DNA of 64,000 nt, taken from positions 1 to 64,000 of the forward strand of contig JACDHS010000004.1 of the NCBI GenBank assembly GCA_013820875.1. Reading direction: 5' to 3'. This stretch comes from Verrucomicrobiota bacterium. Lineage in GTDB: Bacteria; Verrucomicrobiota; Verrucomicrobiia; Limisphaerales; JACDHS01. Below the pieces are notes generated by a model. It was not told where the DNA came from and did not search any database. It saw nothing but the letters and a program-made list of their open reading frames with translations. The translations under genes were made by a program, and so were the position numbers. Positions 49,412-61,121 of the stretch are shown here, piece by piece; positions within the stretch are counted from its first letter, which is position 1; each line of letters begins with the position of its first letter.

Positions 49412-50941
49412 TTACGGCGAGGCAATAATGTTCGTTGGGATCTGTACTAGATTTGTGGAGTTCGCCAGCATGACGACGATTGAATCCAGGGCGGCTTTAT
49501 TCTCCATTTCGGATTGATTGCAGTTATTCAGCATCATCGAAAAGATCAGTCGTTCTCCACTGGCATTGGTGAGATAGCCCGATAGGGCGGCAACCTTTGG
49601 GAGAGTTCCCGTCTTGGCGCGAAGATTCTTTGCAGCGCTGGTGTTTGCAAAGCGACTCATCAGGGTGCCATCCACTGCAGCAAGCGGAAGGCTGTTGATG
49701 AAGGTGTTCGAATACTTGTGTTCAGCCATATACTTAAGCAAGGCCACATTGGCGTTCGCTGTCACCAGTCCGTCTCGAGACAAACCGGCGCCATCCTCCA
49801 GCAACACTTCTTCAGGATTGATATTAGCTTGTATCAAGAAGCTCTCGAGCATCTTTAGCCCAGCTTTTTCGGTGTTAAGGTGTGGGTTCTCTGTGTATTT
49901 GGATCCCACTTGCAGAAGCAGCAATTGCGCATAAAGCCCCTGGGAGTTTTTTAGGGTCTTGTTAATGATCTCTGAAAGTGGACGCGAATTCACTGAGCAA
50001 ATTTCCACCATTTGCGAGTAATCCACAGGGCGATCCTGGCGTTCCAGCCAATTCACCGAACGAGTTCTGCCGCTAACTGTGATTCCCTTTTCAACAAGCC
50101 GTTTTTTAAGTTGTTCCGCAAAGAGCGCCGCTGGATCGGGCATTGCCACCGCTTCGGTGGCGCCCTTTGTATTTTGAACCGAAAGACTGCCGGAGAAATA
50201 AATATTTGTGTCGCCAGGTGCACGGTAAAATCGGATTCCAGATCCGTCAGAACTGGTTGTCCTGGTGCGATTGATTATTCGGACAAGCGCTGTTTCCGGC
50301 TGGCCAACGAAAGTGCAGGGATCTCCAACGCGACTGCCAGGTTTGATTGTGTAACGAATCACATTATCATCAATCGAGAGTGCGGAAGCCGCCGCCCCAT
50401 AGTGATACTGCAAATCTTCCCATTTCCAACCTGATCCGATACCCGAACCCCGGAAGAAACTCTCATCGGCCACAATGTCCCCATTGATGCGTTTGACGCC
50501 ACTTGCAGCAATCGCATCCACCAACGATTTCAAAGATCGCGCGTAAGCACCGTAGTTGAACCGTTGTGAAAATGTAGGATCGCCACGCCCATAAACGATT
50601 ACATCTCCTGCGACGATGCCCGAGGAGTCAGCTTTGGTATTCGCGTAAACAGAAGTTCTAATTCGGTAGTCCGGGCTCAGTTGATCCAAGGCAAGAGCTG
50701 TAACATATAACTTCGCGTTCGAGGCAGGTTTTAAGAAATTCGCGGCGTTGTGCTCGAATATCGTGTTTGAATCACCGTGTTGCACCTTGAGCCCCCAAAT
50801 AGATTGCAAAAAATGATGCTCCGCAATCTGCATTTTAATGCCCACTGCTGGAGACGAAGGGTTAAGGAGCGGAGCGGAAGATTGGCTGAGCGCCTGTGCT
50901 ACCGGTATGATGATTGAGCAAAAAACAAAAAGTCGATTCAT
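49412..50941 (-). CDS. dacB: D-alanyl-D-alanine carboxypeptidase/endopeptidase (PBP4, S13)
   Basis: FLKPASNAKLYVTALALDQL (SxxK), SRPLSEIINKTLKNSQGLYAQLLL (SxN-like), LRAKTGTL (KTG). Confidence 0.93.
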   Translation of the reverse strand: MNRLFVFCSIIIPVAQALSQSSAPLLNPSSPAVGIKMQIAEHHFLQSIWGLKVQHGDSNTIFEHNAANFLKPASNAKLYVTALALDQLSPDYRIRTSVYANTKADSSGIVAGDVIVYGRGDPTFSQRFNYGAYARSLKSLVDAIAASGVKRINGDIVADESFFRGSGIGSGWKWEDLQYHYGAAASALSIDDNVIRYTIKPGSRVGDPCTFVGQPETALVRIINRTRTTSSDGSGIRFYRAPGDTNIYFSGSLSVQNTKGATEAVAMPDPAALFAEQLKKRLVEKGITVSGRTRSVNWLERQDRPVDYSQMVEICSVNSRPLSEIINKTLKNSQGLYAQLLLLQVGSKYTENPHLNTEKAGLKMLESFLIQANINPEEVLLEDGAGLSRDGLVTANANVALLKYMAEHKYSNTFINSLPLAAVDGTLMSRFANTSAAKNLRAKTGTLPKVAALSGYLTNASGERLIFSMMLNNCNQSEMENKAALDSIVVMLANSTNLVQIPTNIIASP

Positions 50942-51027: not shown

Positions 51028-51378
51028 TCAGTGTCCAAAAATTTCGAATTCAAACTGCGGATTACAAAGATATTGGGTTTTGGCGAAGACTTCAGGAGAA
51101 AGACCGTGCGCTTTTTTAAATTCTCGAGAAAAGTGGTTGCTCTTTTTAAATCCCAGAGAAAAGGCAACCTCCTTCACCATCCTGTCTCCATTTAGCAAGT
51201 GCTTAGCATCATCAAGACGTAAGTGATTAAGCCATTCCTGTAGTTTAAGTCCAAAGACATCTCGAAAATGGCGCTGCAACTGACGTTGTGATATCCCGCA
51301 CGCCTGGGCTAACTTCGCAGAAGAGTACCTCCCACACCTCGCCAGGCACGGCCAGCTATATATCTTGTATGACCACAT
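51028..51378 (-). CDS. AraC-family HTH domain protein (short, possibly partial)
   Basis: SSAKLAQACGISQRQLQRHFRDVFGLKLQEWLNHLRLDDAKHLL...VKEVAFSLGFKKSNHFSREFKKAHGLSP. Confidence 0.82.
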   Translation of the reverse strand: MWSYKIYSWPCLARCGRYSSAKLAQACGISQRQLQRHFRDVFGLKLQEWLNHLRLDDAKHLLNGDRMVKEVAFSLGFKKSNHFSREFKKAHGLSPEVFAKTQYLCNPQFEFEIFGH

Positions 51379-52064
51379 CGCAACTTCGCTCTTGTTCTAG
51401 TGTGGGTGGGGTAAAGCACCATAATTAGCATCAGGTAGTAGGGTCAAGTGTATTTCTTCAACTAGAAGTTTCCCTTTTAGGATTGAGTTGCCTCAAAAGC
51501 TACGGTCAGGGGTGCTGAAAAGCCTCTCAAATCAGCACGCAGCAAAAACTTCGTTGCCTGCGGTTGAATCAAATGACCCCGCAAAGGATAAAGAAGAACA
51601 GGAATAGCTTCATTTCGAAAAAAACGGAAAAGCCATAAAAAACCGACTTCGCTCGTGAAACAGACCCATTCCCATATTTCCGTCAACGATAGTTTGTCGC
51701 GCATAGATACTTCAATTCTCTTGAGAACGGTGACGCACTCACTAGGGTGTGCATCTAGATACCAATGCGTGAAACAACTAATACTATTGCGGCATTCACC
51801 GGCACGTTGGTCAAACCGGTTCTGACGGCAGCATGCTATAATAGTATGATAACTAACTTCTTAACCAGAAGCTTCAGTGCCGCCAATGTTGGCTTAATAA
51901 AGGCAGCAGGCATTCCGCTTTCTCTTTGTGGTGCGGCGAACCGCAGAAGCGAATGGTATCTAAGAATTTACTCAGACAACAAATGGGAAGAGTTGGGGAC
52001 TCTGGTGAGTTCTTGACTGGCTGGTAAGCCTATTTTCCATTTGAGTGTTGAGTAGAGAAAAACA

Positions 52065-52316
52065 ATGAAAAAACTGATACAACTCGTAATGGGTGGACTA
52101 CTGGCATTGGCTTTGCTGGTCGGTCCTGCCAATGCAGCTACATCCTGCTCCGACGGAAAAGCATCGTGGACCTGTGAGAGTGGCACCGTTTGCTGCTCTT
52201 ACACATCTTGGACATGCGGTCTGATCAAAGTAGGCCCGATCTGGATACCGTGGTGCACCTCAGAGCGGATCAATACTTGTGTTCCGAGCGGATCGCCCTG
52301 CCCGATTCCATCATAA
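52065..52316 (+). CDS. Secreted 8-cysteine small peptide (83-aa precursor)
   Basis: Signal peptide MKKLIQLVMGGLLALALLVGPANA then ATSCSDGKASWTCESGTVCCSYTSWTCGLIKVGPIWIPWCTSERINTCVPSGSPCPIPS. Confidence 0.75.
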   Translation: MKKLIQLVMGGLLALALLVGPANAATSCSDGKASWTCESGTVCCSYTSWTCGLIKVGPIWIPWCTSERINTCVPSGSPCPIPS

Positions 52317-52355
52317 GCTTCTTTTAAAAGAGAAGATCAGAGGTGGTTTTCTATT

Positions 52356-53321
52356 ATGGAAAACCACCTCAATAAAGTAAACTATATGAAGAAGTCTCAA
52401 AACAATCGTCGTTGGCTGTTTCTCGGTATTTTCCTGCCCCTAATTATTTTTGCAATAATCGCCTCAATCAGCATCAAGAAATCCAAACTGGGTGCGGAAC
52501 AGGCGTTCAATTCCCCAGAAGCGGCTAAGGTTCGTCAAATATTGACCAATTGGAATAGTGGCGACTTTCATCCGATTACCACGCGGGAGGAAATCAAAGC
52601 TGAACTGTCGGAGCGTTTGACCCCAATATCCGACTTCTCTGCCCTTGAGAATACGCAAAGATTAGCGCTCCTCGATTCACTCGGCAGCTTTTTTCTTGCA
52701 TACCATTCTTCGGATTTAACGGACTTTTTCGCCTTTCGCATTCCGGCCTCAGCTCAATCTGGACAAAGCTATGTTGCGAATCTTGGAGAGATTAACAAGT
52801 ACAAGCGATTTCTACCGTCATCCGATGTAATCGATAAAGAGCTAAAAAAGGCGGGCAATGCGAATTCTGCTGCTGAGCTTGGATATGATCTCTCCAAGCC
52901 GCTTTTTGTAATCGAAACCTATCGGGGATTTATAGATACAGCGTCTCGCAAAAAGCAGGGGAGCACTACTCCCTGTGTTACTTGCTTGACTGCCGTAAAT
53001 TTTGACACCCTACATTTTCGGTCGGAAGTAGTGACAAGTGTAGAAGCGTTATCTCTGCAGCAAGTGGTAAGTGGAATGGACTCCATTGGTATGGTCCAGC
53101 CATTGCCCGATATTTCATTTCAACCATCCGCCCGTGACGTGATACGGGACACCGGATCAGTTAGATATGCATCCATGGTAGTCACTGTGCAGGCCGAACG
53201 ATTTGGCATCAAGGCATTTCCAGTGGCGGTACTTTGGTATTGGGCACCCTCGCTAGGCACATGGCTTCCAGAGGAAATGCTCCTTTTGTCCAGGTTGAAC
53301 GCTGCAGATATAATGTTTTGA
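52356..53321 (+). CDS. Single-TM anchored hypothetical protein with CVTC motif
   Basis: RRWLFLGIFLPLIIFAIIASI TM; GSTTPCVTCLTAVNFDTLHF; alternative start at 52386. Confidence 0.72.
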   Translation: MENHLNKVNYMKKSQNNRRWLFLGIFLPLIIFAIIASISIKKSKLGAEQAFNSPEAAKVRQILTNWNSGDFHPITTREEIKAELSERLTPISDFSALENTQRLALLDSLGSFFLAYHSSDLTDFFAFRIPASAQSGQSYVANLGEINKYKRFLPSSDVIDKELKKAGNANSAAELGYDLSKPLFVIETYRGFIDTASRKKQGSTTPCVTCLTAVNFDTLHFRSEVVTSVEALSLQQVVSGMDSIGMVQPLPDISFQPSARDVIRDTGSVRYASMVVTVQAERFGIKAFPVAVLWYWAPSLGTWLPEEMLLLSRLNAADIMF

Positions 53322-53334
53322 GACGCAACAAGTT

Positions 53335-53808
53335 GTGAAGATTAAAATGACTTTTACAATTGCAATGCGGGCATTTATTGTTTTTGCTGTGTTACTGCTC
53401 TCTTTCACTTCGTTGATGAAACTGAACGATGCAATATTTAGTTCCAGCCCGGAGATAAGAAGCCCGGATCCGGTAATATCTTTCCTTCGACAGAAAGAAC
53501 TTTACCTGCTTGTTGGTCTGCTCGAATTGGGAGTAATTCTGTATTGCTGCAGCAAGAAAAATATATGGAATAAATGTTTAATTATATTAAGTTTGTCCAA
53601 CTGCTTCGTCATTTACCGATTTGCTCTTTATTCCATGGATAAGCTTCACTGTTCTTGCGCGGGAATATGGGCGCAAAGCAATTCTCTAGTACAGAAATCA
53701 ACGATGGTTGCGTTAATACTATTGCTTATTGGTTCAGCGGCTGGAGTATTTTTCTGCCGCCCTAAAAAATCTGACGCTCAAATGCTTAGCGAACGATTAG
53801 AATTGTGA
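53335..53808 (+). CDS. MauE/DoxX-like membrane protein
   Basis: GTG start; four hydrophobic segments; LKLNDAIFSS...FLRQKELYLLVGLLELGVIL; CSCAGIW. Confidence 0.55.
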   Translation: MKIKMTFTIAMRAFIVFAVLLLSFTSLMKLNDAIFSSSPEIRSPDPVISFLRQKELYLLVGLLELGVILYCCSKKNIWNKCLIILSLSNCFVIYRFALYSMDKLHCSCAGIWAQSNSLVQKSTMVALILLLIGSAAGVFFCRPKKSDAQMLSERLEL

Positions 53809-53869
53809 GTAGCAGACTCAACTCATGAAGGCATCTCTACATTGTCATTTGCAGTAACCTCGTAGGACA

Positions 53870-56002
53870 ATGATTACACTGAAATCTATTCGAGGCGCCT
53901 TCTGCCTGGCATTAGGTTTGGCCCTGGCTATATTTTTTGAGAAACAAGGCCTCAAAGCAGACCATTTTATCACAATTTGGGCTCATCGTTTCTCTCAGGC
54001 GTTCGAAGACCCAGATACCCAGTGGCTGTTTGTAGTTTTTTGCGTTTCTTATTTCGTAGTCTTGTCCGCCCTTTTTCGCCCTTCGCAAAAGTCTGCTATT
54101 TTGGGTTGGACGCTAGGAGAACTATGGATTGCAGGGCTCCTTCTCGGGGTGCTTATTCCTTATGCCAGTAATTATTCAAATGCCTCGCAATCTACTGACG
54201 CTTTGATTGTTGTCGCAGGGTTGTGCATTGGCCGCGCCACCATCGTGGTTGCACAATTGATCACTCGGTCGGGTTATGCATCCATGCAAGCAATCGTTCT
54301 TGCTCTGCTTATGGTCTTTTTGGTAGCCGCCTGTCTTGGACATGGCCAGAGTGGCGATGTTTATCATTACCAAGGACAGCCCCGTTGGACCGGTCCCTGG
54401 CGGAACCCAAACACGTGCGGATTACTTATGGGCGTTGGATTTGCTCTTTCATTGGGGCTTTTGCTTAGGGGACGCAGACCGAAAAGTGCTGTTCTGGAAG
54501 AGCGACTGGAAACGATTGTTATATTAGCCGCAATTGTGATATTTGGCATTTGCCTCACGATCACATTCAGTCGTGGGGCTTGGGTTGGAACCTTTTGCGC
54601 AGTCATATATCTCTGCATTAAGCGATTAAGCTCCTCTACGATATCAATCGTTCCGGGTAGAGAGCGAATGCATAGAAATGGGCTGATATGCTGTATACTC
54701 GTTGTTGGAATTGGTGTGGCGGGTTGGAGCGGAACACGTTTGCTCACTCCAGACTCGCGGTTGGAGAAACGGCTCCAATCGTTTACTAACATCAACGATT
54801 TTTCTTGGCGCAATCGTGTTAGCACCTGGGTGGGAATGCTTCAGATGATTAGTGATCGTCCTGTTTCGGGTTTTGGATGGAAAGAAATGGAGGGTAGCTA
54901 TATCGATTATTACAGGCCTGTCGGTTTAAACGATGGACTTGCCGTACGGGTAAACAATTACCTTGGGGCTGCCGCCTCTGCGGGGATAGCGCTCCTTGCT
55001 TGTTTGGTGGGGTATATCTGCATTTCTTGGCCCGGAAATCGGCACCCCAGTGATCTCAAGGTAAAGAGTGGAACGTTCTGGGGCCGGGAGGATTGGCTTT
55101 TAGTGGTGGTTCAGGCCGGAGCCATTGTGTTTGTTGTAGGGTTTTGGTTTGACGGAGGGCTTTTTCAAATGGCCACGGCGGTTCCGTTTTGGTTGTTGCT
55201 TCAGATGCACGCGCTTAGATCTAAAGGCGTCGGCGAAAAGGAAATTGGAGGGAAGGATTCTCGCCCGAGTGCTGGAATTGTGGCGGAATTGTCGGATTCA
55301 GCAAAGGCATTGAAAAACTACTATATGCGGTGGCCTAAGACTCTGCGAGTTGTAATAACAATACCGGCAGTTCTAATCGGCATTTGCTTGATCTTACCTC
55401 CCCTGCAAATCCTTTTTGCGCGTTTCCATTCGCCTGCCAAGACAGTTGCGGTTCACGGAACTAACATTTCTGCAAGGGCTCATCTATCCGAGGTTTCCTC
55501 GGATTTTCTTACTTGTGTATGGGTTTCTGAGGATCGCAGGTTTTTCACGCATAGCGGTTTTGATTGGGAGGAAATCAGAAATGCAAGAGAAGAAGCAAAA
55601 CGCACCGGCAAGCCACCGCGAGGGGCTTCGACCATAACTCAACAATGTGCTCGTTCTTTGTACTTATGGCAGGGGCGGTCTTGGATACGAAAAGGATTGG
55701 AAGCTTATTACAGTATTTGGATGGAATTATTGCTTTCGAAGGTGCGAATTTTGGAGTTGTACGTCAATGTGATTGAGTTGGGGGATGGAATCTATGGAAT
55801 TGAAGCGGCGTCACAACATTATTATGGAGTATCTTCCGCTGAACTCACTCGAGAGCAGGCGGCGATGTTGGTGGCAATTATGCCAAATCCCAAGCAATGG
55901 GATCCGCTGAACCCTAACGAGCGTGTGCAGCGTCGTCAGGCTATGATTTTGCAGCGCACGGAACACGCGAAGTTTCCGCTCAGCCTGGAGGAGAAAAGAT
56001 AA
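53870..56002 (+). CDS. Fusion: O-antigen ligase/polymerase-like membrane domain + GT51 peptidoglycan glycosyltransferase
   Basis: N-terminus: GPWRNPNTCGLLMGVGFALSLGLLL, TFSRGAWVG, SDRPVSGFGW. C-terminus: EDRRFFTHSGFDW, GASTITQQCARSLYL, RKGLEAYYSIWMELLLSKVRILELYVN. Confidence 0.9.
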   Translation: MITLKSIRGAFCLALGLALAIFFEKQGLKADHFITIWAHRFSQAFEDPDTQWLFVVFCVSYFVVLSALFRPSQKSAILGWTLGELWIAGLLLGVLIPYASNYSNASQSTDALIVVAGLCIGRATIVVAQLITRSGYASMQAIVLALLMVFLVAACLGHGQSGDVYHYQGQPRWTGPWRNPNTCGLLMGVGFALSLGLLLRGRRPKSAVLEERLETIVILAAIVIFGICLTITFSRGAWVGTFCAVIYLCIKRLSSSTISIVPGRERMHRNGLICCILVVGIGVAGWSGTRLLTPDSRLEKRLQSFTNINDFSWRNRVSTWVGMLQMISDRPVSGFGWKEMEGSYIDYYRPVGLNDGLAVRVNNYLGAAASAGIALLACLVGYICISWPGNRHPSDLKVKSGTFWGREDWLLVVVQAGAIVFVVGFWFDGGLFQMATAVPFWLLLQMHALRSKGVGEKEIGGKDSRPSAGIVAELSDSAKALKNYYMRWPKTLRVVITIPAVLIGICLILPPLQILFARFHSPAKTVAVHGTNISARAHLSEVSSDFLTCVWVSEDRRFFTHSGFDWEEIRNAREEAKRTGKPPRGASTITQQCARSLYLWQGRSWIRKGLEAYYSIWMELLLSKVRILELYVNVIELGDGIYGIEAASQHYYGVSSAELTREQAAMLVAIMPNPKQWDPLNPNERVQRRQAMILQRTEHAKFPLSLEEKR

Positions 56003-56003
56003 T

Positions 56004-57368
56004 ATGGATCAGCTTTCACAAGGTCAGATTGAATTTGTTCGAAAGGAGAGAGTTTTCAAACGCGGGATGTCGTTGATCATCATTAATACGATACTCATTC
56101 TACTGGCATTGTTGCTGTCGGGATGCAGTCAGCAGGAAGGACGCGTTTTGAATGGTGATGATAATACCCCAATTGTGGGAGCAACCATTTATCATAATGG
56201 ACAGGTCGCCCAGTCAGACAATGAGGGGCGTTTTAAATTGAACAGGCCTGACCTGAATAAGCCTCTGCTGGTTAAGGCTGTTGGTTTTCGCCGAATATCT
56301 GTTCCATTGAAACGATACATTCGTCCCAACGCACGCCTGGAGAGCTTTCAGGCCAAGGCCGTTTACTTGTCTCACGCAGGTGTCGGTGCGGCCCATTTGC
56401 GTAATCCTGTGTTGGACCTGATAGCTGAAACAGATGTGAATGCGGTGGTGGTGGATGTCAAAGGGCAACGAGGATTATTTAGTTTCTCCTGGGAAATCCC
56501 AATAGGTCACCAAATCGGTGCCTTTTCAAAAATCACCATCGAAGATCCGGATGCATTTATTCACCAAATGCGCGAAAAGAACATTTACGTGATCGGACGT
56601 GTGTGCGTGTTCAAAGACGAGGCATTGGCCAACAACAAGTCGGAATGGGCCGCTATAGATCCGAAGAGCAACAAGCCATTTCGGGATACTGACAAAATTC
56701 CGTGGATGGATCCGTTCCGCAAAGAAGTTTGGGAATACAACCTGGCCATCGCGAAGGCTGCGGCTGAAGTAGGCTTCGATGAGATTCAATTTGATTATCT
56801 CCGTTTTCCCACTGCCCCCGTTAAGTATTCAAAAGAGAACACGAAAGAAGCTCGTGAAGGCGTCATAAAGGAATTTCTGGCAAAAGCACAAAAAGAACTG
56901 CAACCATATAATGTCTATCTCTCTGTAGCCACTTCTGGGATTTCCCTCTGGAAGCAGGGTGATGCCGATATTGGACAGGATCTTGCGATTATTGCGCCAT
57001 TAGTCGATTACATTTCGCCATATATTTTCCCCTCCGACTTACCCGCCGGAGCATTAAATCTGAAAACGAACGCTGCTGCGGTTCCGGGAGAAGCTGTCAC
57101 CGCCGCTTTGGAGATGGGAATTCAACGCATCGGCAATCAGCCGGAAAAAATTCGGCCTTGGCTGCAAAGCTTCAAAGACTATTCGCGTTTACGTCGAGAG
57201 TTTAAGGAGGAGGAAATTGCAGAGGAAATTGCAGCCTGTGCTGATGCCGGCACCGCTGGTTGGATATTCTTCAATCCTGAAAACAAATATCCTTATGTTT
57301 CTGGAGCCCTGGAGAAGGCGAAGCAGCATGTTTCGGGTAAAAACAAAATCGCCCAGGTCCAACCATGA
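56004..57368 (+). CDS. Lipoprotein: carboxypeptidase-regulatory-like domain + DUF4015 putative glycoside hydrolase (paralog 1)
   Basis: Lipobox LLLSGC; VGATIYHNGQVAQSDNEGRFKL; VNAVVVDVKGQRG; IYVIGRVCVFKDEALA; GFDEIQFDYLRFP. Confidence 0.88.
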   Translation: MDQLSQGQIEFVRKERVFKRGMSLIIINTILILLALLLSGCSQQEGRVLNGDDNTPIVGATIYHNGQVAQSDNEGRFKLNRPDLNKPLLVKAVGFRRISVPLKRYIRPNARLESFQAKAVYLSHAGVGAAHLRNPVLDLIAETDVNAVVVDVKGQRGLFSFSWEIPIGHQIGAFSKITIEDPDAFIHQMREKNIYVIGRVCVFKDEALANNKSEWAAIDPKSNKPFRDTDKIPWMDPFRKEVWEYNLAIAKAAAEVGFDEIQFDYLRFPTAPVKYSKENTKEAREGVIKEFLAKAQKELQPYNVYLSVATSGISLWKQGDADIGQDLAIIAPLVDYISPYIFPSDLPAGALNLKTNAAAVPGEAVTAALEMGIQRIGNQPEKIRPWLQSFKDYSRLRREFKEEEIAEEIAACADAGTAGWIFFNPENKYPYVSGALEKAKQHVSGKNKIAQVQP

Positions 57369-58702
57369 TTCATCGATTTCTCAAAACAGTTTTCTGGGGG
57401 ATAGTGGCTGTCAACCTGTTGACAGGATGCAGCCAGCACTCAGGAGTAGTGCTCGATGATTCCTCGCAAAAACCAATTGCTGGGGCGACTATCTTCCACA
57501 ACGGGAAAATGACGCTTTCAGGAGCGGACGGCGAGTTTGTCTTGAAACGGGTAAATTGGGAAAAGCCGGTTCTGGTCAAGGCATCTGGATTTCGCCGAAC
57601 ACAAACGAACCTGGCGCGTGAGGAACCGGTTCGCATCTCACTCGAGCCATTTGATGCAAAAGGAGTTTACCTGTCTTATTATGGTGTGCGGTCTGACACA
57701 GTGCGTGGGCGTGTTTTGCAGTTGATCGAAAACACGAGCATCAATGCAGTCGTCATTGATGTTAAGCCTGACGAAGGGACTCTCAGTTTTCAATGGAGCA
57801 TTCCGTTAGCGGAAAAGATCGGATCCATGTCGCGTCCCACAATTGATGATCCGGAAGAATTCATTGCGGAATTACATGCAAAGGGAATTTACGTCATCGG
57901 GCGCATTTCAGTTTTTAAAGATAACCTTCTCGCCAGCAAACGACCTGAGTGGACGATTCAAAGTGTGAAGACAGGGTCGCCGTATGCGGAACGAGACAAA
58001 ATGGCGTGGATGGATCCGTTTCGGACTGAGGTTTGGGATTATAACATCTCTGTTGCAAAAGCGGCTGCTGAGGCGGGCTTTGATGAAGTGCAATTTGATT
58101 ACGTTCGCTTTCCGGTGAACACAGGGCCAACGGTGGCGACCTATCGAAAAGAGTACAGTGCAGTAAACCGTGGAGAGGCGATTGTCGGCTTCCTTAAGAA
58201 AGCTTATCAGGAATTGCTTCCTTACAACGTCTTTGTCGCAGCCGATGTGTTTGGTATCACTTGTTGGTATGACGATGAAAGCGGCATCGGACAGCCCCTT
58301 AGAGAAATGTCTAAATGGGCCGATTATGTGTGTCCAATGGTGTATCCTTCCGGGTTTACAACGGGTTTTATGAATACTGACGAAAAGCCAGTAGCAATCC
58401 CTCGTGAAGTTATCTTGTGGTCCATGCAGAAAGCGCTTCCGATCGTTAATGGACAGCACAAAAAGCTTCGCCCGTGGCTTCAGAATTTCAAGGATTATGC
58501 ATACGACCGGCGTCAATTCACAGACCGCGAGATAGCGTTACAGATTTTTGCGTCTGACGAGGCCAACACGAGCGGTTGGTTACTCTGGGACGCAGGAAAT
58601 AAATACAATCACACGGCCGAGGCGTTGCAGCTTTTAGAAACTGGAAGCGTTTCTAATTTGCTAAACAAGCCACTAATCGCGGAACAAAAGGTATCTCAAT
58701 GA
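57365..58702 (+). CDS. Lipoprotein: carboxypeptidase-regulatory-like domain + DUF4015 putative glycoside hydrolase (paralog 2)
   Basis: VNLLTGC lipobox; same architecture as paralog 1; ATGA overlap with the upstream gene. Confidence 0.88.
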   Translation: MIHRFLKTVFWGIVAVNLLTGCSQHSGVVLDDSSQKPIAGATIFHNGKMTLSGADGEFVLKRVNWEKPVLVKASGFRRTQTNLAREEPVRISLEPFDAKGVYLSYYGVRSDTVRGRVLQLIENTSINAVVIDVKPDEGTLSFQWSIPLAEKIGSMSRPTIDDPEEFIAELHAKGIYVIGRISVFKDNLLASKRPEWTIQSVKTGSPYAERDKMAWMDPFRTEVWDYNISVAKAAAEAGFDEVQFDYVRFPVNTGPTVATYRKEYSAVNRGEAIVGFLKKAYQELLPYNVFVAADVFGITCWYDDESGIGQPLREMSKWADYVCPMVYPSGFTTGFMNTDEKPVAIPREVILWSMQKALPIVNGQHKKLRPWLQNFKDYAYDRRQFTDREIALQIFASDEANTSGWLLWDAGNKYNHTAEALQLLETGSVSNLLNKPLIAEQKVSQ

Positions 58703-59508
58703 AAAAGCGTCTAAGACCAGAACTGGCAATGACATTGATAGAACTGCTGGTCGTGATCGCAATTATTGCAATCCTGGCTGGATTGCTTCTGCCAGCTTTG
58801 GCTAAGAGTAAAGCAAAAGCTCAACAAGCCTCTTGCCTGGGAAATCTGCGCCAGCTAACCATGGCGTGGAAGATGTATGCCGACGAGAATGACGGAAGGT
58901 TCGTGCCGGTCTTTTACTTTCAAGCAGGAAAAATCAATTCCAACGCCTGGGTCCGGGGCAGCATGGACGATGATATATCCACCTATCCGCCGGTCGAACC
59001 GGGCATTTTGGATTCCACCAACGTAAATGGATTGCGGTTTGGTGGACTTTACAAATATCTAAATTCTCCGCGGGTTTATCGATGCCCAGCCGATAAAAGT
59101 GAAACGAATCGCGTTCAAAAAGTGAGGAGTTATTCGATCAACGGTTGGATGGGAGGCACTTATGTTGCCGGTCAAAGCAACTATTGGGTTTTTAAGAAGG
59201 AAGCCGATCTTGTCAATCCGTCGCCCTCCGCTGCCTGGGTGTTTTTGGATGAGCATGAGCGCAGCATTAACGACGGCTGGTTTGCTGTAGATATGAAGGG
59301 GAGTCGAGGTCTGCTGGACGCTCCAGCGGCTCGGCATAATTTCGGCTACGGCATCACTTTTGCCGACGGGCATTCAGAGATTTGGAAACTGGAAGATGGA
59401 CGCAGCCGCAATTGGGAATCACTGCCGATTAGTAATCGTCCGCGCAACCCTGATTGGGAAAAGTTAAGTGCAGCAACCACCAGCTTAAAGGAAGCGCCCG
59501 CAAATTAA
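58699..59508 (+). CDS. Type II secretion/type IV pseudopilin-like protein
   Basis: MTLIELLVVIAIIAILAGLLLPALAKSKAKAQQASCLGNLRQL; C-terminal RHNFGYGITFADGHSEIWK. Confidence 0.92.
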   Translation: MKKRLRPELAMTLIELLVVIAIIAILAGLLLPALAKSKAKAQQASCLGNLRQLTMAWKMYADENDGRFVPVFYFQAGKINSNAWVRGSMDDDISTYPPVEPGILDSTNVNGLRFGGLYKYLNSPRVYRCPADKSETNRVQKVRSYSINGWMGGTYVAGQSNYWVFKKEADLVNPSPSAAWVFLDEHERSINDGWFAVDMKGSRGLLDAPAARHNFGYGITFADGHSEIWKLEDGRSRNWESLPISNRPRNPDWEKLSAATTSLKEAPAN

Positions 59509-61121
59509 TTTCTTCTGTATCCGTGAACGAGATTTCCCAGGATGAAGTAAAAAGTGGTTCCACTCCAGCAGAAGGCCGACCTCGCAAGCTGCTGTTCTCT
59601 TCTGTCCACTTCATTGAAACCAAGAGCTTATGGATACCAGGTCTCCTGGTGCTCCTGTTTTTTGGGGCGCTTTTTTGGGCGAAAGCCAAAGATCCTTACA
59701 AACGAATCTGGTTCACACTCAAACCGGAAAACTGCCCGAAAGCCAAGGCTGTGGCGGTTCTTTCGAAACCGATTCGTCCAGTTCCCATAGTGATCTTCGC
59801 ACATGATCGGGGGGAGACACTGTTGAGCAGCGGTGTGGAACTGCGCCAGATGGCTGAAATGGGCATGGCCACCATCAACTTTGAGTATGATCAAAACAGC
59901 CGGGAAAACTTTAATGCCCAGTTCCTTCAACTTCATCGCTTTCTTCAAAGGCAGTCGTGGGCCAGAACGAATGATGTAGCCTGGATCGGCGCTGGGCTTG
60001 GAGCAGAATGGATGCTTCAGTTCGCGCTCGAGAACCAGACGCTTCAACCGCAGATGATGATTCAATTGGGAGGAAAGTGGTTTCCCGATTTAGGTGCCGC
60101 AACTACCCAATCCAATTTCCTCAAATCGCGGGTTTCGTTGTTTCACGGCGAAAATGACAATCTCGTCTCGGAGACCGAAGTGACGCGCCTGCGGGATTTT
60201 TTCGTGACGAACGGGGTCACTGCTGACTTGCGGATTGTGCGAGGGCAACAACATGATTTCGAACCAGACCGAACATTGTTCTTCCGGGTGCTTGGTGAGC
60301 ATTGCTTACAAGTGCTTGGTGGCGGCAATGCATTGGGAACATATCGTTCCATTGCATTATGGGATAAAAATGCAAAACCACTTCTGCTCTATTGGATTCC
60401 GGCAATCGCCTGGATTGGACTCTGGATTTATGTGAAGCGACGAAACCGCTCCCCTGCGCCCGGCGTTCCCTTGGCCTGGTGGGAGAACGGGTTGCGTTTC
60501 CTCGCAGTATTTCTCATGGTCCTGGCGTTGGGACGAAGTGCCATTCATCTACTCACGCCTCGATTCCAAGTTAGTCCATGGACTTTGTCGATCGCTGAAA
60601 AGTTCCTGATAATTCCAAAATGGAGGGAGGATTTCGATGCTGTAAAGCATCAATCCTACTGGTCGGACGAGCGTCTCAAAACTCTGCTAACCCACGTTGA
60701 ATTATCGAATTACAATCGCGAGTTAATCAATTGGAGAGTGGATGATCCAATCTATCGCGAATTCGTTTTGTCGCCGATCATTACCGGGGATGACAAAGAA
60801 CTGAATTGGCGTCGTTCACTCTGGGAAAGTTTTTATCCGCGCATTCGAAAGGAAAATTCCATTTTCTCTGCGGCGCGAATCATCGTCCGCCACCTGCGAG
60901 AACGTGTGACTATCTCGGGGGAGCAATATGATTATGGGATTGAAGGGATCTGGCTCAACCAGATTACCGATGCAACGGGATTTGAAATGATCTACGTGGC
61001 TGCAATGCGCTCGGCAGGAATTGCGGCGCGCCTGAACACGGCAGGACGCGCCGAATTTTGGGACGATGTCTCCTGGCAACTCGCGCCACGGCCTGCGATT
61101 GAGCAGTTGGATAAACTGTAA
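59454..61121 (+). CDS. Alpha/beta-hydrolase-like domain + TM segments + C-terminal degenerate transglutaminase-like domain
   Basis: IVIFAHDRGETLLSSG...WIGAGLGAEWMLQFAL; TM segments; RSAGIAARLNTAGRAEFWDDVSWQLAPRP. GTG at 59523 is a possible alternative start. Confidence 0.65.
   Translation: MGKVKCSNHQLKGSARKLISSVSVNEISQDEVKSGSTPAEGRPRKLLFSSVHFIETKSLWIPGLLVLLFFGALFWAKAKDPYKRIWFTLKPENCPKAKAVAVLSKPIRPVPIVIFAHDRGETLLSSGVELRQMAEMGMATINFEYDQNSRENFNAQFLQLHRFLQRQSWARTNDVAWIGAGLGAEWMLQFALENQTLQPQMMIQLGGKWFPDLGAATTQSNFLKSRVSLFHGENDNLVSETEVTRLRDFFVTNGVTADLRIVRGQQHDFEPDRTLFFRVLGEHCLQVLGGGNALGTYRSIALWDKNAKPLLLYWIPAIAWIGLWIYVKRRNRSPAPGVPLAWWENGLRFLAVFLMVLALGRSAIHLLTPRFQVSPWTLSIAEKFLIIPKWREDFDAVKHQSYWSDERLKTLLTHVELSNYNRELINWRVDDPIYREFVLSPIITGDDKELNWRRSLWESFYPRIRKENSIFSAARIIVRHLRERVTISGEQYDYGIEGIWLNQITDATGFEMIYVAAMRSAGIAARLNTAGRAEFWDDVSWQLAPRPAIEQLDKL

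Follow-up and report, generated by a model that had tools for sequence, protein, structure and literature searches.

O-antigen ligase (WaaL) binds undecaprenyl pyrophosphate through two arginines, and a histidine (His-313 or its equivalent) has been proposed to activate the acceptor (PMC10920833; see also PMC10449877). The position of this histidine is taken by an aspartate in SEDS proteins and usually by an aspartate or a glutamate in related polymerases (PMC10920833). In PglS, His324 serves as the catalytic base (PMC12800693).

The gene analysed here lies in the window, by which we mean the whole 64,000-nt stretch of the verrucomicrobial contig JACDHS010000004.1, and joins a membrane domain of the Wzy_C family to a peptidoglycan glycosyltransferase of family GT51. 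If the fusion is real, it unites a WaaL-type GT-C domain and a GT51 in one chain, a combination that we did not find in the other genomes and papers searched. A search of the literature yielded no description of a Wzy_C–GT51 fusion or of the gene cassette that surrounds it. Our preferred reading, to which we give slightly better than an even chance, is that two cassette genes have truly fused in this lineage, tethering the one GT51 polymerase found in the genome to a WaaL-like membrane partner.

The fusion gene and its mtgA half

The gene and its parts are located in the window as follows.

53870–56002, plus strand: Wzy_C–GT51 fusion gene, ATG start, single open frame, 710 aa
53870–55225, plus strand: membrane domain of the Wzy_C subfamily, residues 1–452, about 12 predicted helices, WaaL-like fold
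54527–55006, plus strand: PF04932 match, residues 220–379
55226–55336, plus strand: linker, residues 453–489, net positive, predicted to be cytoplasmic, coding in the fused frame
55337–55417, plus strand: predicted transmembrane helix of the MtgA part, residues 490–516
55475–55960, plus strand: GT51 peptidoglycan glycosyltransferase domain, residues 536–697, motifs intact

A preliminary description had placed an O-antigen-ligase-like domain and a GT51 domain in a single polypeptide, and the open reading frame together with the Pfam and NCBIfam scores bears this out. PF04932 (Wzy_C) matched residues 220–379 with 39.6 bits (cut-off 31.7) and PF00912 (Transgly, GT51) residues 536–697 with 163.8 bits (cut-off 27), so that both families proposed in that description score above their Pfam cut-offs, including the O-antigen ligase family on which its reading of the N-terminal domain depended. 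The C-terminus matched TIGR02070 (monofunctional transglycosylase, MtgA equivalog) with 190.5 bits (cut-off 182.65). A match of the Wzy part to TIGR00947, which would make it an IctB-type transporter, reached 30.5 bits against a cut-off of 366 and was rejected as generic Wzy_C similarity. The motifs NPNTCG and FSRGAWVG are present in the protein, as are the GT51 motifs EDRRFFTHSGFDW, GASTITQQ, RKGLE and SKVRILELYVN. All of the catalytic GT51 motifs (ED..F..H.G, GASTITQQ, RK..E and K..ILE.Y.N) are there and are invariant or conserved with relatives, and the Pfam search gave no match to the transpeptidase domain (PF00905) in the fusion protein, in agreement with the earlier claim of an intact GT51 that lacks a transpeptidase.

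Among solved structures, the GT51 domains of PBP1A and of monofunctional glycosyltransferases come nearest in sequence. A tree built from 98 GT51 proteins clusters that of the window with those of the genomes G092, G266, G072, G001 and SKYG129 (support 99/85), and this clade nests in a verrucomicrobial mtgA clade (100/96). Thus, the fusion is the mtgA of the order with an extra domain in front. Of 320 genomes of the order, 5 were found to have a GT51 protein of the mtgA type; in four of these it is accompanied by Cys-rich, MauE-like, Wzy or X52-like genes (see below), and the fifth has DUF4015 and prepilin-like neighbours in common with the window. The window GT51 is the sole PF00912 match found in its genome, and a real fusion would therefore carry the only GT51 there. 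The genome also encodes two SEDS genes (PF01098: C81 and C136) and two class B penicillin-binding protein (PBP) genes, all of them separate, suggesting that its main wall polymerases are distinct from the fusion.

The surrounding cassette and the distribution of the fusion

The cassette genes of the window, nearly all of which overlap or are closely spaced, are listed below.

51028–51378, minus strand: AraC-type HTH protein, 116 aa, divergent, with homologues at other cassette loci
52065–52316, plus strand: small secreted Cys-rich protein, 83 aa, signal-peptide-like N-terminus, 8 Cys
52356–53321, plus strand: X52, membrane-anchored protein of unknown family
53335–53808, plus strand: MauE-like membrane protein with a CxC motif; its Pfam MauE match is sub-threshold (20.2 bits, cut-off 27)
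56004–57368, plus strand: DUF4015 putative glycoside hydrolase, starting 1 bp past the fusion
57365–58702, plus strand: second DUF4015 protein
58699–59508, plus strand: prepilin-type N-methylation protein, with counterparts of 62–70% identity downstream of GT51 in three other loci
59454–61121, plus strand: alpha/beta-hydrolase and transglutaminase-like membrane protein, usually adjoining or fused with a Wzy_C protein

Across the order, the genes that recur around this Wzy subfamily encode an AraC-type protein, a secreted membrane protein of 350–450 aa, a small Cys-rich protein, MauE, Wzy and the hydrolase, and OpgC is sometimes part of such loci elsewhere in the order. The cassette was seen at 51028–61121 of the window and at L040, L047, L049, L051, L055, L056 and L192, its members varying by locus. 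It is apparently an undescribed conserved cassette of this verrucomicrobial order. Complete Cys-rich secreted ORFs, as called by a crude detector working without a formal signal-peptide tool, were found in the 5 kb upstream of Wzy at 12 of 31 loci on the same strand and at 3 of 31 on the opposite strand. The CxC motif is retained in nearly all MauE homologues. MauE helps disulfide formation in methylamine dehydrogenase, a role that would suit a Cys-rich client. X52 has relatives at the Wzy locus L054 and through these beside a GT51 (L042); compared with the 269-aa protein beside the GT51 of G072 it gave no direct match, the two being connected only via the L054 proteins.

Several further observations concern enzymes of the region. 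The transglutaminase-like domain of the protein encoded at 59454–61121 and its relatives has an aligned motif without Cys in 13 of 13 sequences. Two GT51-linked clusters have the hydrolase gene (the window and SKW90), and both lack its GxSxG serine, which is present in most clusters without GT51. A D-Ala-D-Ala carboxypeptidase of family S13 is encoded near the cassette, on the opposite strand (49412–50941, minus strand).

Fusions among cassette members are recurrent. At no fewer than ten loci a single ORF encodes both Wzy and the hydrolase/transglutaminase-like protein; such ORFs measure about 800–1090 aa at L046, L047, L048, L057, L177 and L187. In G266 the MauE-like protein is joined to GT51 in a 400-aa ORF (L041:5670–6872, minus strand); this mtgA gene has thus fused a second time within the cassette, with another partner. 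At the same locus, a signal-peptide-like ORF of roughly 30 aa with two Cys (L041:6917–7084, minus strand) occupies the Cys-rich slot, with the secreted membrane protein on one side and MauE-GT51 on the other. In SKYG129 the GT51 gene overlaps a MauE gene and comes after a Cys-rich gene, and in G072 it is preceded by an X52-like gene and a Cys-rich ORF. Such varied fusions and neighbour combinations are a classic sign that genes act together, and in their company the fusion in the window is easier to believe than if it stood alone. They also turn a physical complex of the cassette proteins into a testable idea and, if the fusion is real, would connect mtgA with a particular envelope pathway of Verrucomicrobiota.

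We searched for the Wzy_C–GT51 fusion itself in genome samples of the order, the class and the phylum, which overlap with one another. Among the matches listed for 320 genomes of the order, both halves were seen in one frame in the window only. The fusion was not found among the matches listed in a GT51 alignment search of 384 class genomes, nor among those listed in a full-protein search of 388 phylum genomes. A full-protein scan of genome contigs found no relative; its place was taken by an alignment-based GTDB-wide scan, in the best 80 loci of which the fusion was again not found. The plasmid collection gave only mtgA-like and other partial matches, none spanning 80% of the protein. Long frames ahead of GT51 (L063/L146, L064/L150 and L152) were rejected as fusions; their N-termini are without a Pfam match and rich in Arg, Ala and Gly, which is typical of unused frames in GC-rich DNA. 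The preliminary description had proposed looking for the fusion in relatives. What we found there is adjacency of the two genes: in SKW90 (Verrucomicrobiia, G092) a gap of 26 bp separates the stop of a 508-aa Wzy gene from the start of the 258-aa GT51 gene that follows. The fusion itself was seen in none, and in the same-family genome G001 the GT51, split over two contig ends, has its own start and no Wzy part.

This distribution would also be expected of a real but recent and idle fusion, in which a lost stop joined two neighbouring operon genes and the halves work as before. The genes are separate in relatives, the fusion was found in none of the other genomes searched, the GT51 part retains its own transmembrane helix, and the length of the linker is close to that of the SKW90 intergenic gap plus a GT51 N-terminus. 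However, the cassette shows recurrent fusions with different partners, suggesting that proximity is favoured, and we consider an idle fusion unlikely, while allowing it a serious share of the probability.

The junction between the two halves

The fusion is probably a real in-frame one, seen in one draft assembly only. This assembly consists of 239 contigs and is 99% complete with 2.2% contamination. We scored the linker region (55230–55328, residues ∼453–489) with codon usage trained on the genes of the window itself. The fused frame reached +12.3 bits over 33 codons and the other frames −14.2 and −0.5, to be read against 8.8 ± 4.4 for known coding sequence and −13.5 ± 12 for intergenic DNA. 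A separate GT51 gene with the linker as its N-terminus would be expected to give the same coding signal.

A rather improbable alternative is that a one-base error in sequencing or assembly deleted the stop of the Wzy-like gene and merged it with mtgA. The source is a single draft genome, SKW90 keeps adjacent but separate Wzy and GT51 genes, and frame 2 has the stops TAG and TAA exactly where related Wzy proteins end, which leaves room for an uncorrected single-base error. On the other hand, one frame carries a continuous coding signal through the linker, the frame does not change within the aligned ends of either domain, and the completeness and low contamination of the assembly also count against such an error.

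The Wzy_C half and the proposed function

The N-terminal half belongs to an order-restricted, divergent Wzy_C subfamily with a WaaL-like fold. All 15 members match PF04932 at E ≤ 0.001, and a sample of 387 other genomes from across the phylum gave no member of the subfamily at E ≤ 1e-40. A mixed alignment of Wzy and GT51 proteins (A2) put Wzy C-termini onto GT51 and was left out of the analysis. As a search of the PDB with the Wzy sequence profile gave no match, we turned to fold comparison. An AlphaFold2 model with a mean pLDDT of 64, rising to 80–90 across many membrane helices, matched a single PDB entry below E 0.001, WaaL 7TPG (3.3e-5; TM 0.53 on target), with RodA second and weaker. In the full-length model the GT51 part, which was without alignment, is poorly predicted, and so is its placement relative to the Wzy part.

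R235 (in SRGAW) and R316 (in WRNR) are invariant in the subfamily; a distant alignment makes them the putative equivalents of R191 and R265 of WaaL. In none of the 15 members does the column of the acceptor-activating histidine hold His; the residue there is V, M, T, L or S (V361 in the window). Of the six further Wzy_C proteins that the genome encodes, five keep this histidine. D363 is nearly invariant in the subfamily and is replaced by N only in the window. The N-terminal half therefore resembles O-antigen ligase in its fold and fails its defining catalytic feature, and with the histidine absent throughout the subfamily the label "O-antigen ligase" cannot be assumed.

This bears directly on the functional part of the preliminary description, according to which a surface glycan is attached to nascent peptidoglycan, the Wzy_C part transferring an undecaprenyl-linked glycan onto the strand that GT51 is polymerising. 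By homology both domains would use polyprenyl-pyrophosphate sugars on the periplasmic side, and the conserved arginines and the WaaL-like fold are in accordance with such a transfer. However, besides the lost histidine and the exchange at D363, no genes for glycan repeat units or glycan assembly were seen in the neighbourhood of the fusion. Moreover, relatives have the genes separate and the fusion was found in no other genome searched, so a coupling of ligation to polymerisation is not conserved. The direct attachment is thus unsupported, and we regard this reading as very unlikely. We hold out no more hope for a scheme in which GT51 polymerises lipid II and the Wzy_C half, by a chemistry that does not use His, moves the strand or an undecaprenyl-linked glycan onto an acceptor such as the Cys-rich protein; if true, wall and surface would be joined covalently in a way not seen before. 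The least probable reading, that the Wzy_C part is a PglL/PglS-like O-oligosaccharyltransferase glycosylating the Cys-rich protein of the cassette with GT51 as an accessory, can appeal to the common GT-C family of these enzymes (PMC12800693) and to the strand bias of the upstream Cys-rich ORFs, but the residue class missing from the subfamily is that of the catalytic base of PglS.

Taken as a tether, the fusion could work as follows. The Wzy part, by analogy with WaaL, would end in the cytoplasm, and the helix at residues 490–516 after the positive linker would then put GT51 in the periplasm, the usual MtgA arrangement. The GT51 half is predicted from homology to polymerise lipid II into uncross-linked glycan strands, and the main wall synthesis would be done by the separate SEDS and class B PBP proteins. 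The conserved arginines of the WaaL-like domain may bind undecaprenyl-pyrophosphate carriers. Lacking the catalytic histidine, the domain is more probably a transferase of altered chemistry or a docking part for the cassette than an O-antigen ligase. The fusion may hold the polymerase in the place where the cassette acts and where the secreted Cys-rich protein would mature, its oxidation probably being assisted by the MauE-like protein.

Compared with known systems, the fusion is closest in its C-terminal half to MtgA (GT51, TIGR02070), with which it shares intact GT51 motifs, one preceding transmembrane helix, the lack of a transpeptidase, a score above the NCBIfam equivalog cut-off and a place inside the verrucomicrobial mtgA clade. 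Unlike MtgA, it has an extra multi-pass membrane domain of ∼450 residues ahead of the helix. Class A penicillin-binding proteins likewise hold a GT51 in a membrane-anchored two-domain protein, but there the partner is a transpeptidase and here it is Wzy_C. SEDS proteins of the RodA/FtsW type (GT119) give a weaker structural match (8tj3, 6pl5) and also place a GT-C enzyme beside another wall enzyme, whereas the fusion is without a PF01098 match and its genome has its own RodA and FtsW. With WaaL (GT121, PF04932) it has in common a Wzy_C score above cut-off, about 12 helices, the putatively equivalent SRGAW and WRNR arginines and the best PDB match, 7TPG; it departs from WaaL in that the whole subfamily is without the proposed acceptor-activating histidine and in that the fusion, joined to GT51, sits in a Cys-rich/MauE cassette.
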